Part shown: positions 26,712 to 32,419 of the stretch, in pieces | Layout: each line of letters starts with the position of its first letter | Numbering within the stretch: position 1 is the stretch's first letter | Virus record (IMG/VR): IMGVR_UViG_3300011115_000084 | Location: 1-32,419 of that record | Reading direction: 5' to 3' (one strand) | Source of the DNA: a virus | DNA length: 32,419 nucleotides | Translations under genes and position numbers: made by a program | The notes under the pieces: model-generated | Database searches by the model: none | Seen by the model: only the letters and a program-made list of their open reading frames with translations | Told to the model about the DNA's origin: nothing

Positions 26712-28238
26712 TCACGCACCCATCCAAGATGTTGTAGGACTACTGCCTTGGGCATTAGTACGAATTGTTTTTTCTAAATTATAAGCACGATGTGCCACCG
26801 GAAACGCAAAGGTAACCGCCAAAGCATCTGCCGCATCTGGACTAGCCAACCCTCGCGCCCTCATTTCCTTTTTTCCTTCAAGAAATATCTTACCACTTGA
26901 ATCCGGCTTTTTGGTTGGCCCCGTCAAATCTGCCTTTAATTGCCGGTCCACAGGGATACTTGCCGTCTTAAGCCAGTTCCTCATGTCGTTCCACATCTCA
27001 GCCCTCTTATTCCCAAACGCCACACTCAACTTTGCCTTATTCCCAAAGTTTACCCCCCTAACCTTGTACCTCTGCTCGGTCAGCCGGTCCAGTATCCCGT
27101 ACCCCAATCCCCCCTCGTCAATTACCGTGAGAGCTGGCTTAAATTCCTCAATTGCCTCAATTACCCGCCCAACAATCGTCATCGTGTCCTCGCCCTGGTA
27201 ACGCTTTAAAGCCACCAAGTCCCGACCCTGACGCACCGCAATCACCGTGGCATCGGCTCCACCCCTTGCCGGATCAACGCCCACAATGATTGGAGCCGTT
27301 AAATCCTTCCACTTCACCCTGGCCGCAGCATCATCAACCAACACCGGACTGATGAACTGGTCCTCCCCAGCACTTGGGAACTCACCATACACCTCAACCT
27401 TGGCCTGGCTCGAATCAGGCCCATACTCCGCAATAATTTGCTCATATATCGCCTTGTCCGTATCTTCCACAGTCCGAGCATCCACGCACCTGGTGTCCCA
27501 AAAGTCCCGCTTTGCATGGAAAGTTTCAAAGAAATATCCCTCATTACGCCGAGGATTGCTAAACGCAAACCAATACCTGTCCGGCGTGTTCTCAGTGAAA
27601 AACCCAGCCCCAACCTCCCAAATCGGGTTAGGAATACCACTGCTCTCATCAAATATCAACATCATTCCATCCTGGTTATGCACACCCGCATACGAATCAG
27701 GGTTCTCCGCACTCCACAACTTACCCTCACACGCCCAATACCTCGTACCCTTCTTCAAATCTTTCTCCACCAACTCCGTCAACCAGTTTGCTGGCACTAA
27801 CTTTGTCGCGCTAATCTCCCACCAATGCGAATTGATCAACATCGCAGCCCACTTGGTCAACTCAGCCCAAGTCACAGACCGCAACTGGTTCTCACTGTTG
27901 GCACTCACCACCACACTCCCACCAATCCGTGTCGTCAACATCCACAATATCAACCACGACACCAATGCACTCTTGCCAATCCCCCGACCACTGCTGACCG
28001 CCATCCTGATCGTGTCGTAATCAACCAACCCCTTTTGCTTCTTGATGTGATTCGTTATATCCCTCAACACCTCACGCTGCCACGCCCTTGGCCCAGTAAA
28101 CTTGTGCAACGGCGTGTTCTTCTGCCCCCAAGGAAATGCATACAAAACAAAGTTCTCAGGGTCATCAGCAATAGCAGGTGACCACAACTCCACCATCAAC
28201 TTCTGCTCGTGTTCACTTTTGTAGATTGGGAGTTGCAT
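26712..28238 (-). CDS. terL: Terminase large subunit
   Basis: This 508-aa protein is the packaging motor. Its ATPase domain has Walker A SSGRGIGKSALVSW (about 82-95) and Walker B MMLIFDESSG (192-201). The C-terminal RNase H-like nuclease has VGVDPARGGADATVIAVR with D322, then VIDEGGLGYGILDRL with D374, and a final acidic residue in SPDAADALAVTFAF. It cuts concatemeric DNA and pumps it through the portal. The N-terminal segment with FTGPRAWQREVLRD is usual for this family. It is separated from TerS by the 732-aa gene and a plus-strand gene, which is unusual. Confidence 0.95.
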   Translation of the reverse strand: MQLPIYKSEHEQKLMVELWSPAIADDPENFVLYAFPWGQKNTPLHKFTGPRAWQREVLRDITNHIKKQKGLVDYDTIRMAVSSGRGIGKSALVSWLILWMLTTRIGGSVVVSANSENQLRSVTWAELTKWAAMLINSHWWEISATKLVPANWLTELVEKDLKKGTRYWACEGKLWSAENPDSYAGVHNQDGMMLIFDESSGIPNPIWEVGAGFFTENTPDRYWFAFSNPRRNEGYFFETFHAKRDFWDTRCVDARTVEDTDKAIYEQIIAEYGPDSSQAKVEVYGEFPSAGEDQFISPVLVDDAAARVKWKDLTAPIIVGVDPARGGADATVIAVRQGRDLVALKRYQGEDTMTIVGRVIEAIEEFKPALTVIDEGGLGYGILDRLTEQRYKVRGVNFGNKAKLSVAFGNKRAEMWNDMRNWLKTASIPVDRQLKADLTGPTKKPDSSGKIFLEGKKEMRARGLASPDAADALAVTFAFPVAHRAYNLEKTIRTNAQGSSPTTSWMGA

Positions 28239-28279: not shown

Positions 28280-28471
28280 ATGAAAAAAGTTCAATCACGT
28301 GCGGAACTTGATTGGCGCAAAAAGCGTTGTGATGAACGCTGGGAGAAGCGCGTTGAGTACCTCGAATTTGCCTTCAGCGGTGTTTCCACCATGCTGCCAA
28401 GCCAAATTACCCACCTGAAATCCGAGGCAGTCAATCACGCCCCAATGAGTTATCAGAATTCACAGACATAA
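28280..28471 (+). CDS. Small plus-strand protein between TerL and the 732-aa gene
   Basis: This 63-aa basic protein begins KKVQSRAELDWRKKRCDERW, a Lys/Arg/Glu-rich helix, followed by EYLEFAFSGVSTMLPSQITH. It has a good ribosome binding site (TAGGAG at 6 nt spacing) and a promoter-like pair upstream. Its 3' end overlaps the minus-strand gene by 41 bp. It is one of two plus-strand genes in the late region. A regulatory or anti-restriction role would fit its size and charge, but no family was recognised. Confidence 0.55.
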   Translation: MKKVQSRAELDWRKKRCDERWEKRVEYLEFAFSGVSTMLPSQITHLKSEAVNHAPMSYQNSQT

Positions 28472-30629
28472 ATACTGCTGGGACCGTGCCGGCTTTGGCT
28501 GCATCTTTTAAACCTTGCCAGCCATATTTAGCAAATATTTCTCTAGCCCTCATCACATCAGCGCGGCTAACGCCATACCCAGCCTTTGCTGCCATGGCAT
28601 CACGCTCATTTCTTCTTAGCACTGTGTTTCGATAAAGCTGGTTGCCCTCAAGCATTGCAGCCGTTTTAGGGGCTGCTTCCAAGTGCTTCATTAATTCATT
28701 AGTGACAGAGCCAGGTACGCCGCTTTTGTATGCATCCCCATAATCAATGTAGTTACTTTTTAAAGCGCCAAAATCAACTTTTGCGTCTTTAAATGTTTCT
28801 TTGTTGCCTTTAAGAATTGACCTAACATCATCAGCAAACAACTTACCCGCTGGGGTCCCATCATTGGCCATCACTGTGATGCCCTCAGGCGCACTGGCTA
28901 AGTAGTAACCTTTTTTCTCAAACAATGGTGCAACTTTTTCCATGTCTGATTGACTGAATGGCTTACCAAAATTAATTCTTGCTCCGGAATAATTGTCAGC
29001 ATTTTTGGCCGGCATTAGCTTGTGCCACGCACCCGCCTCTTGCACGTCAAAATAAGCCCTTGCCGCCTCAACCGCAGTCATTCCCCTTGCCGAGCCGGGT
29101 GTCATCACCCTTTGGCCATCAGCCATTGTTTCAGTGCCAACAACTGGCCGCGCAACAAATGCAGGGTTTGCGCTGTTTTTAAATCTACCCACCGTTTCAG
29201 CCGTTTGACCTGGCAACATCCCAGCCGCGGTGTATCCAATATCTCGTCCAGATGCAGATGTGTTCCATGTGCCTAAAGGGTCAGCCGTGTATCTCAAACG
29301 CGCATCAAATGGCGCATCCAGCAAGCCCTGCAAATGCCCCGTAACCGGCGAACTTACAGCCTCATAAGTCGCATTGGCCTCATGCAATGGGAAATACGTG
29401 GCATAAGACTTTGCCGCATCACCAGGAGACAAATCACCCCTGCGAATTTTGTTGCCCGTCCATGCTGCTGCTTGTGCATTGCCAGTGTTCCAATCACTGA
29501 ACCCGCCCAGCTTTATCTCATTGGCCTTGGCAATCGCCCGTGCTCGAACCTCATCCATGAATGCGTGTTGCGTAGCACCACCAACTTTGCCAGAAGGGTA
29601 GCCCATCAACTCAGCCTCATGCATGTCATTGACACCGCGGCCAATTCTCTCGGGCGCATACTCAACACCAAGTTGAGTCGCAAAAGGATCACGCTTGTGG
29701 CCCAAATACTCAGCCATTCTTGCGTTGTACATTTCTTGCAATGGCGGCGAATCCTTGCTCGGGAAACGCCCAGTTTTAATCGGATCACCCGTGGCAGCCT
29801 GTATGTGCGCTTTGGCAGACATTGACGTATTGCCGCCCACATTGTTTGCGCGACTCAGAATTGCAATGTTTTGCGCCAACAAATCCGACTCATTAATATT
29901 TTGACCTGTTCGCGCAAAAATATCGGCACTTGAGTCCGTGTAAAAACTTCTACCAGGCAAGCCTTCCATCATTCCCTTCATGTAGTCATTGACCATCGCA
30001 CCCAACTTCTGCGGCGAATCAACACCAGGAGGCGCACCAACATATTGCCCCGAAGTATTTGAGCGCCTGTTTGCCCTTGTCACTTCAGCCTCACGCGCAG
30101 TCGATGCTTTTACACTTGGGTCCATTGCAAACTTAATTGGTGATGGCGCAAACGCTTCAGGCACACCAGGAATGGTCGATCGCCCAGACATCATCCTGTT
30201 GGCCAATTCTTCACCAACCATGCGGCCACCAGCCATCAACCCTTGCCTGGTTAATTGCAAACTCCTGAGAATTTCAGCAGGCGTTAACGGGGCCATCCCT
30301 CCCGCCTGCCCAGCCACTTGCCCCAGCCTCGATGTCGGGGCCATAGGCAACTCTTTTAAGAAATACTCTGTTGTATAAGGCAGTTGCGCTGGCGGCTCAT
30401 AACTTACATCGCCAAACATCTCCATCGGACTAGGCGACCTGACCAAATTTGCAATGTCAGTAGGGGTTCCCATCGTCCCAGCAAACCGTCCACGGGTAAC
30501 ATCAACCGGCAAATTAAGCGCATCCCTCGGATCGCCACGCCGATACCTATTTAACTGAGGAAAAAATCCAAAAACAGCGTTGCTGTTTAAAGCATTTAAG
30601 TCTTCAGGGGCTAAATTATTTGTTGCCAT
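28431..30629 (-). CDS. Large protein of unknown function between TerS and TerL
   Basis: This 732-aa protein starts at ATG 30629; the frame opens upstream to a GTG at 30671. It is rich in Pro, Ala, Gly and Met early on (PPAQLPYTTEYFLKELPMAP), then helical (LTPAEILRSLQLTRQGLMAG, ADIFARTGQNINESDLLAQN). A possible folded C-terminal part follows (PLFEKKGYYLASAPEGITVM, DDVRSILKGNKETFKDAKVD). I do not recognise a family. The size and position beside the packaging genes suggest a virion or host-interaction protein. No ribosome binding site is visible, but a -10-like element ends 7 bases before the ATG, so the message may be leaderless. Confidence 0.65.
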   Translation of the reverse strand: MATNNLAPEDLNALNSNAVFGFFPQLNRYRRGDPRDALNLPVDVTRGRFAGTMGTPTDIANLVRSPSPMEMFGDVSYEPPAQLPYTTEYFLKELPMAPTSRLGQVAGQAGGMAPLTPAEILRSLQLTRQGLMAGGRMVGEELANRMMSGRSTIPGVPEAFAPSPIKFAMDPSVKASTAREAEVTRANRRSNTSGQYVGAPPGVDSPQKLGAMVNDYMKGMMEGLPGRSFYTDSSADIFARTGQNINESDLLAQNIAILSRANNVGGNTSMSAKAHIQAATGDPIKTGRFPSKDSPPLQEMYNARMAEYLGHKRDPFATQLGVEYAPERIGRGVNDMHEAELMGYPSGKVGGATQHAFMDEVRARAIAKANEIKLGGFSDWNTGNAQAAAWTGNKIRRGDLSPGDAAKSYATYFPLHEANATYEAVSSPVTGHLQGLLDAPFDARLRYTADPLGTWNTSASGRDIGYTAAGMLPGQTAETVGRFKNSANPAFVARPVVGTETMADGQRVMTPGSARGMTAVEAARAYFDVQEAGAWHKLMPAKNADNYSGARINFGKPFSQSDMEKVAPLFEKKGYYLASAPEGITVMANDGTPAGKLFADDVRSILKGNKETFKDAKVDFGALKSNYIDYGDAYKSGVPGSVTNELMKHLEAAPKTAAMLEGNQLYRNTVLRRNERDAMAAKAGYGVSRADVMRAREIFAKYGWQGLKDAAKAGTVPAVFMSVNSDNSLGRD

Positions 30630-30907
30630 AAACCAATTTATACCATACAAAATAAAATAAAAATTCTGCACGGATACACCGTAACTGTGACCCCTTGCCG
30701 CCGGGACCTACCCACCCCCACCTCGGCTGGGTGGAAGGGCAATGCCAAGAACCATGCCACCCTTATCCACAGGGTTTTGTGCCCACTTATTCACATTACC
30801 TTGTGGATAACTTTGGCAGTAGCTATTCGGTATTCTTTTTTCTGTGGATAACTTTGGAGTCGGTTAACATAATGGACACTGTATTAAGTAGCAGTAGGGG
30901 TTAACCC
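30630..30907. other. Candidate replication origin: DnaA-box cluster with AT-rich stretch
   Basis: This gap (no supported gene) holds four exact matches to the DnaA box consensus TTATNCACA: 30763-30771 and 30787-30795 on plus, 30802-30810 and 30843-30851 on minus. The last two lie in a 15-bp direct repeat, TGTGGATAACTTTGG, spaced 41 bp apart. An AT-rich stretch (30630-30666) lies about 100 bp to the left, as an unwinding element would. The palindrome GGGTTAACCC is at 30898-30907, and a GC stem (CCACCC 30712-30717, GGGTGG 30729-30734) is between. Host DnaA binding and origin function are inference from the boxes. Confidence 0.6.
30637..30645 (-). promoter_or_regulatory. Extended -10 immediately before the 732-aa gene
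   Basis: On the minus strand TGGTATAAA (complement of 30637-30645) is an extended -10 of the TGnTATAAT type, with one mismatch in the hexamer. Its 3' end is 7 bases from the ATG at 30629, so transcription would begin at or near the start codon. The flank is very AT-rich. No -35 is visible. Confidence 0.4.
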
Positions 30908-31434
30908 TCGTTTTGTGCGTTTTCAATGCGTTTGACGCTGACATCAATGATGTTCGATTGAACCCGTGCTTGCGCTGCCTCTAACGCATCCAAAACGCTG
31001 ATTCGCGTGTCAGTCACGCTGACATCAATGCGGTCGCCATAAGTGCGAGGCTTGAGCTTGCTGGCTACCCACTTGCGTGCATCAACCTGGACTCGCAACT
31101 GCTGCACCCAGGCACTGGCTGCTTGTCCTTCCAAGCCTGCTGGTATCTTTTGATCGGCCAAGTCAATGATCTCCTCGGCCATGCGGTCTGCACGGTCTTC
31201 CACGGCCTTCTCATAGGCTTCCTTGAATGATTCATTGGTTCTGATCATCAACTTGGCCAGCGAATAGCTCGGCATATTTGGCATTCTCAAAATGCTCGAT
31301 AGGCTTTTTCCGTTGGCAATTCCATCAATGATTTTTTCCCAAACAGGGTTTTCAATTGGAAACTCGACAGGTCGCCCCATAATTCCTTTGGGTTTTTTGT
31401 CATAGTTTTTTTCTATTGCATTGCTGTTTTTCAT
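30901..31434 (-). CDS. terS: Terminase small subunit, Sf6-like
   Basis: This 177-aa protein fits the small terminase of the Sf6 type, which binds the packaging site and feeds DNA to TerL. The N-terminal DNA-binding part contains EKIIDGIANGKSLSSILRMP, SYSLAKLMIRTNESFKEAYE and KAVEDRADRMAEEIIDLADQ. The rest is a helical oligomerisation region (WVQQLRVQVDARKWVASKLK, PRTYGDRIDVSV) and a variable tail. AGAGGA precedes ATG 31434. The 100 bp upstream (31435-31534) have no clear promoter that I can name. Its stop codon overlaps the palindrome at 30898. Confidence 0.82.
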   Translation of the reverse strand: MKNSNAIEKNYDKKPKGIMGRPVEFPIENPVWEKIIDGIANGKSLSSILRMPNMPSYSLAKLMIRTNESFKEAYEKAVEDRADRMAEEIIDLADQKIPAGLEGQAASAWVQQLRVQVDARKWVASKLKPRTYGDRIDVSVTDTRISVLDALEAAQARVQSNIIDVSVKRIENAQNEG

Positions 31435-31534
31435 TGTTTTCCTCTATGCGTGTGTGCGTAACTGGGCAAATTGTTCTTGTTTACCGTCCAACCTATGTAT
31501 CTTAATCGTTAATTACCGTGTTTACTGAGTCATG

Positions 31535-31942
31535 CTAATTGACTGACAATTTGTTAATCTTTTGCGTGTTGCTTTGATTATCCACAACCCTGAGATAATC
31601 CTCGATGAGTTTAATTCCTTCATTTGCTGATCTGGCGATGAGGCACAAATAACCTTTATCGTTTAATTGTTTAGATAATGCTGATTGTTTATGACTGACA
31701 ACGCCTATTTTTGTTTTCATTTCAACAAACAGTCCATGAAATCCATTTAAAGGCTCTAGGACGCAAAGATCAGGCATCCCAGCAAGTACCCCTTCATGGG
31801 CCAAGCGTAATCGTTCTGACGAGCTTCTGTTGCCGCCGTTGGGTATTGCGGCCACGATGATGTCTGGATGAAATGCACGGATGTAAGCCACCAGTTTGAC
31901 TTGCTCTGAATGTTCAATGCTTTTGCGTTTCAAGTGATCCAC
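31535..31942 (-). CDS. VRR-NUC domain nuclease
   Basis: This 135-aa protein is a single VRR-NUC (PD-(D/E)xK) nuclease domain. It shows the N-terminal Glu (HSEQVKLVAYIRAF, E13), the PNGGNRSS loop, catalytic D58 in GMPDLCVLEP, and FVEMK with E74 and K76, followed by KQSALSKQLNDKGYLCLIAR with Q86. Such stand-alone phage enzymes process replication intermediates or Holliday-junction-like DNA. It overlaps the gene before it by 13 bp and lies next to TerS, so it may help replication or resolve DNA before packaging. A DnaA box lies inside its coding sequence at 31578-31586. Confidence 0.88.
   Translation of the reverse strand: MDHLKRKSIEHSEQVKLVAYIRAFHPDIIVAAIPNGGNRSSSERLRLAHEGVLAGMPDLCVLEPLNGFHGLFVEMKTKIGVVSHKQSALSKQLNDKGYLCLIARSANEGIKLIEDYLRVVDNQSNTQKINKLSVN
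31578..31586 (+). promoter_or_regulatory. DnaA box within the nuclease gene
   Basis: TTATCCACA is a perfect strong DnaA box. It is isolated by about 700 bp from the clusters on either side, but in the same 1.6-kb zone that holds all eight boxes I found in the window. Confidence 0.55.
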
Positions 31943-32274
31943 CAGTCTGCATTTTCTGTTGCTGATGGTTTAGCCTGGAACATTGTGCATCGGTGTTTAA
32001 TGTTGACAGGGAATGTGGCCAGGCTTGTCTGACTGCACTGCTGCTCATCCCATGAGACTGTTGCCCAGTTGTCCTTGATCTTGACCTCTTCAAACATCCA
32101 GTGTGATGCTGTGTGGTTGTTCTTTCTCAGTTTTTCAAACTGATCTGTGGTCATGCTCATACGCTGTCGTTGTTTTACCGCATTAGAGCAGTTTTGGCAC
32201 AAAACCCTGTCATCTTCGACCCATTCCTCAGATTGTGGATAACCTGTGTATAACTGCTGAACTTGTTCGACCAT
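31930..32274 (-). CDS. Hypothetical CxxC protein at the right end
   Basis: This 114-aa protein has DDRVLCQNCSNAVKQRQRMS (CxxC near residue 27), then Trp/Lys-rich segments and a C-terminal part HRCTMFQAKPSATENADWW. The Cys pairs could bind zinc. The body (NNHTASHWMFEEVKIKDNWA) does not match a family that I know. GGAGAG lies just before ATG 32274, which decides the start; a TTG reading adds one residue. It overlaps the nuclease gene by 13 bp. Two DnaA boxes lie inside its 5' end. Confidence 0.6.
   Translation of the reverse strand: MVEQVQQLYTGYPQSEEWVEDDRVLCQNCSNAVKQRQRMSMTTDQFEKLRKNNHTASHWMFEEVKIKDNWATVSWDEQQCSQTSLATFPVNIKHRCTMFQAKPSATENADWWIT
32234..32253 (-). promoter_or_regulatory. Two tandem DnaA boxes
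   Basis: TGTGGATAA (32234-32242) and TGTGTATAA (32245-32253) are two same-strand matches to the DnaA box consensus, 11 bp apart (one helical turn), inside the first codons of the last gene. Tandem boxes at one-turn spacing favour cooperative binding. Confidence 0.55.
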
Positions 32275-32292
32275 CAAAACTCTCCAAAAGGG

Positions 32293-32349
32293 GTGATTTC
32301 TAATCCGGTAAGACCAAAGGAATTTACCGGATTACCGGATTAGAATCAC
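32293..32349. repeat. Iteron-like repeats with a long inverted repeat
   Basis: TTACCGGA occurs twice in tandem (32324-32331, 32332-32339), and the reverse-complement copy AATCCGGTAA is at 32302-32311. The outer arms GTGATTTCTAATCCGGTAA (32293-32311) and TTACCGGATTAGAATCAC (32332-32349) form a near-perfect 18-bp inverted repeat with one extra base. The block lies upstream of the last gene, so it may be an operator or replication iterons. Confidence 0.7.
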
Positions 32350-32374
32350 AAACCACCAAAACAGGGTGACTGGC

Positions 32375-32412
32375 TTGTGGATAAAGGGTGCTAGCGCCCC
32401 CCTTTATCACAA
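32375..32412. other. Large inverted repeat containing a DnaA box
   Basis: The arms TTGTGGATAAAGGG (32375-32388) and CCCTTTATCACAA (32400-32412) match except for one extra G, around a GC-rich loop with GCTAGC at 32390-32395. The left arm contains a perfect DnaA box (32376-32384). The same structure could act as a bidirectional terminator, because short T runs flank the GC stem on both strands. The window ends 7 bp later. Confidence 0.55.
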
Positions 32413-32419
32413 CAATCCT

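Follow-up and report, generated by a model that had tools for sequence, protein, structure and literature searches.

The window, by which we mean the whole 32,419-bp stretch analysed, is an IMG/VR entry of a P22-type phage and represents a fragment, given that a near-identical contig (L220) runs on past its right end. It carries on its minus strand the terminase small subunit gene terS of the Sf6 family (30901..31434; PF20901 6e-28, phrog_1482 2e-31), a downstream gene of 732 codons (28431..30629; ATG at 30629), for whose 732-aa product family searches returned no match, and the gene of the terminase large subunit TerL (26712..28238; phrog_2 8e-45). A preliminary description had placed four DnaA boxes between terS and the 732-aa gene of a P22-like phage, and it named both neighbours correctly; the portal and TerL are of the P22 type. 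Just before the 732-aa gene, a conserved G-rich leader with a T-rich tract at its end occupies 30630-30745 on the minus strand, and a search for Rfam structured RNAs that included this leader gave no match. The AT-rich stretch previously remarked on near the boxes is real (~30640-30665) but forms part of this separate leader and also occurs in relatives that lack the boxes. The gene that follows toward TerL differs between the window (28431-30629) and L220 (2126-3517), and it looks like an exchange slot because the two phages are ~99% identical on both sides of it. By eye, the starts of the proteins encoded in this slot look alike in several relatives.

The intergenic region contains exact matches to TTATNCACA at 30763(+), 30787(+), 30802(-) and 30843(-), as first described. 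The 15-bp direct repeat that had been reported corresponds to TGTGGATAACTTTGG, which occurs at 30802 and 30843, 41 bp apart. The earlier estimate of about one such 9-mer by chance agrees with dinucleotide shuffles of the whole window, which give 1.15 expected in 32.4 kb and a maximum of 4, compared with the nine boxes in the window. Another four are found at 31578, 32234, 32245 and 32376, so that the last 1.7 kb holds eight of the nine (30763 to 32384).

What accompanies the four boxes in related phages? Relatives were fetched by terS and, together with the window, comprise 78 terS-linked regions. The check for boxes in relatives proposed in the preliminary description has a clear outcome: 151 exact boxes fall in the 23.4 kb right after terS and 8 in 581 kb elsewhere, an enrichment of ~470-fold, whereas the reversed motif used as a control occurs 0 times right after terS and 10 times elsewhere. 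A second conserved element of these intergenic regions, overlooked in the earlier work, is a 28-bp near-palindrome, ACTTNATACAATGNCCATTATGTTAAGT. The 28-mer and the boxes are inherited together, with 67 regions containing both, 11 containing neither and none discordant. In the window, the 28-mer lies at 30862..30889 on the minus strand and consists of a putative XerC arm (ACTTAATACAG, 30879-30889), a central region TGTCCA (30873-30878) and a putative XerD arm (TTATGTTAACC, 30862-30872). Published dif sites have the same layout, with 11-bp arms on either side of a 6-bp centre.

A profile of the arms only, built from 18 published dif sites, ranks the 28-mer first genome-wide in 14 of 16 module-bearing phages, with scores of up to 30.8 (19-36 for known dif sites), and it yields nothing above 12, that is, shuffle-level matches only, in seven module-less genomes. 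The window's own copy is the top match in its genome, but its score of 10.9 is inside the shuffle range; the identification as an Xer site therefore rests on the family. The family as a whole displays the arrangement of Xer sites, namely two inverted 11-bp arms, a centre of 6-8 bp and a XerD arm of the TTATGTTAA type, of which the window copy taken by itself is a weak example. The Rhodoferax dif (ACTTGATACGATGTATATTATGTTAAGT) and an Acinetobacter assay site (ACTTCGTATAATCGCCATTATGTTAAAT) are close to the phage 28-mer. Among 57 distinct 28-mers, taken from 147 loci that were partly chosen by their XerD arm, every XerC arm has C at position 9, a trait shared with cer and psi, and most centres terminate in CCA, like the GATCCA of pSC101 psi, which the window's centre resembles. 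These features favor a resolution site of the plasmid type over a dif of the chromosomal type. The window's XerD arm also resembles that of psi (TTATGTTAAAC), and most phage XerC arms end in ACAA, like the TACAA end of the cer arm.

The boxes are arranged at fixed distances from the 28-mer. In the window, box 1 (TTATCCACA, 30843..30851, minus strand) is separated from the XerD arm by 10 bp (offset +10) and is on the site's strand in most relatives. Box 2 (TTATCCACA, 30802..30810, minus strand; offset +51) is 41 bp from box 1, and two inverted boxes follow on the plus strand: box 3 (TTATTCACA, 30787..30795; offset +66), which mostly has one mismatch in relatives, and box 4 (TTATCCACA, 30763..30771; +88 to +90 in relatives). 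Across the family, offsets from the end of the 28-mer are mostly +10 and +51 on one strand and ~+66, +76 and +88-90 on the other, and the subgroup L009-L021 mostly adopts a register of its own (+4, +50, +65 and +99). With consensus 9-mers at such conserved positions, the window array qualifies as a predicted DnaA binding locus. Conservation, in loci selected by the XerD arm, peaks in the core together with the first box and declines farther out, and the XerC-side flank is little conserved (0.41 bits). The unit is present as a single copy in the genomes searched; the exception, a contig with a second copy at a distance of 36.9 kb from the first, is consistent with overlapping ends. The clustered boxes probably form the constant part of a two-part phage DNA module, the other part being an Xer-like recombination site.

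Could the module instead be an operator, with the 28-mer and the 9-mers recognized by a regulator, from phage or host, that controls the neighboring genes? Such a role would be in keeping with the near-palindromic 28-mer and with a position between two genes. However, in eight loci the entire unit is flipped with respect to terS while its internal spacing stays unchanged, its core matches Xer sites, and the G-rich leader persists where the module is absent, all of which make a regulatory element very unlikely.

The preliminary description interpreted the boxes as an origin fired by host DnaA or as a DnaA-titrating locus. A conserved cluster of DnaA boxes does accompany the packaging genes, but neither function is supported, because the boxes keep their register to the adjacent Xer site and invert with it. 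A DnaA-dependent origin, whose replicon the Xer-like site would also serve, would account for four consensus boxes and a nearby AT-rich stretch; the AT-rich tract, however, is shared with box-less relatives, and a separate region is the better origin candidate as judged from its sequence. This iteron-type region (32234..32419 and beyond, minus strand), 1.4 kb from the module in the window, has the boxes at 32234, 32245 and 32376 around ACCGGATTA-type repeats. In L220, which is ~99% identical, the sequence beyond the window end has more repeats and then a PriCT_2/AAA_25 primase-helicase gene, and three other phages (G028, G029 and G034) keep the box spacing (11 bp and ~120-132 bp) with a different repeat sequence. 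GC skew was uninformative as an origin test, as it follows gene orientation and contig ends.

A clade of relatives bears on both the origin and the recombination readings. In MW202879, a gamma-delta resolvase gene directly follows terS and the module is absent. The module is likewise absent in 14 of 14 loci found via the MW202879 terS, and a serine resolvase (59-99% identity) sits at its place in all 13 clade loci with enough sequence, whereas no resolvase match was obtained in module-bearing loci. Module and resolvase thus share the position after terS, but the resolvase is a phage-encoded enzyme of phages that lack the Xer/DnaA module. The replacement may have been a single event. Those clade loci with upstream DNA keep DnaA boxes 1.2-1.35 kb upstream, in the iteron region by the primase-helicase gene. 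The clade thereby ties the module to recombination and separates its boxes from the origin candidate, and, because resolvase-bearing relatives without the module boxes keep those at the iteron region, we consider it quite unlikely that the module is an origin. A locus of the datA/DARS type, titrating DnaA or promoting its hydrolysis and thereby acting on host replication, would explain a conserved multi-box array. It is nonetheless highly improbable, because neither the fixed spacing nor the resolvase swap would be predicted by titration; the same applies to the co-inherited Xer site and the inversion of the unit, and the boxes per genome are few.

A group of phages from water carries the module beside the packaging gene. 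The pattern of XerD arm, N12 and box has at least 120 viral matches, compared with 2 for a reversed-box control, and many of them are located after recognizable terS genes. Divergent terS genes are among these, as are phrog_1482 members, where the pattern is inverted. No convincing plasmid or named phage with the module was found by DNA similarity, plasmids yielded no close relative of either TerL or the primase, and the module is missing from DSL-LC05 and MW202483, two named relatives by TerL. A phage-encoded DnaA domain was rejected as the binder of the boxes, since PF08299 is present in one of 30 records and that record lacks the module. A DnaA domain IV-type helix-turn-helix (PF08299, 3e-19) lies at 31423-31719 of L092 (MW202483.1), a relative without the module.

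The module could also be an attachment site that targets host dif for XerCD-mediated integration, as in CTXphi and VGJphi, and the boxes would then modulate integration. In favor of this, the site is similar to dif of the host type, especially the Rhodoferax dif, no phage tyrosine integrase (PF00589) was detected in 30 records, and phages that use XerCD in this way are known; the dif-like attP of CTXphi and VGJphi likewise belongs to phages that encode no integrase and is an Xer site of the host type. These phages, however, are filamentous and integrate at dif, whereas no integrated copy of the phage module was recognized in 84,980 prokaryote species genomes (257 Gb). Integrated copies would keep the XerD arm-N12-box pattern, which has 12 matches in these genomes, and on inspection the only module-like one is in L220. 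L220 is a phage contig near-identical to the window that is binned in an 'Acidimicrobium' metagenome-assembled genome, probably by a binning error. A dif search in 369 genomes for the identity of the host gave one uninformative match, and the prophage junctions at host dif that mark XerCD-using integrative (IMEX) phages were not found. Furthermore, the central region varies, with 19 hexamers among the 57 distinct sites, and none of them is the TGTATA common in listed proteobacterial dif sites. Given that the resolvase clade also fits resolution and not integration, integration at dif is unlikely.

We consider it probable, from the sequence comparisons, that this ~130-bp locus serves site-specific recombination, as a putative resolution or circularization site for host XerC and XerD beside the packaging gene. 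Its two parts would be an Xer site of the plasmid type, 28 bp long, and the DnaA boxes that follow at set distances. Phages of the P22/Sf6 type start headful packaging at terS, and the module lies just downstream of terS, near the presumed packaging start. A single Xer site needs a partner copy, which favors circularization or multimer resolution; should packaging begin at terS, concatemers or terminally redundant genomes would contain the module twice in direct orientation. Host XerCD would then recombine the two copies to circularize injected DNA or resolve multimers. Most of the relatives L022-L034 argue against this reading, since L022, L023, L025-L029 and L031-L034 contain neither the module nor a resolvase (PF00239), nor PF00589 in those searched.

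The psi site of pSC101 and the cer site of ColE1 are likewise 28-30 bp XerC/XerD sites with ~130-200 bp of accessory DNA on one side. The phage module is distinguished by DnaA boxes in place of the known ArgR, ArcA or PepA sites and by its location in tailed phages. Known Xer accessory sequences are on the XerC side, whereas the boxes are on the XerD side, which counts against a recombination module. Because the array is on that side and the XerC-side flank is little conserved, we do not count the module among the cer/psi-type plasmid resolution systems, although it may work like psi. The Cre/loxP system of P1 likewise has one recombination site per genome; loxP is near pac and allows terminally redundant DNA to circularize and dimers to be resolved. 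Unlike P1, no phage recombinase was found, so that the module would rely on host XerCD, next to a presumed pac.

What would the boxes contribute to recombination by XerCD? Host DnaA bound to the array could act like ArgR or ArcA with PepA at cer and psi, and a DnaA-built synapse would favor copies on one molecule or time the reaction. We tentatively propose, as a possibility somewhat short of probable, that host DnaA assists and times Xer site-specific recombination as an accessory factor, coupling circularization or resolution of phage DNA to the host replication initiator. No precedent was found for DnaA in such a role, and a search of one literature collection on Xer accessory sequences and the DnaA box returned no match.

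If this interpretation is correct, the module would define a class of tailed phages that leave circularization or multimer resolution to host XerCD, and DnaA could join the accessory proteins of Xer recombination as a new member. The alternation of module and resolvase after terS constitutes a natural swap that makes the function directly testable.
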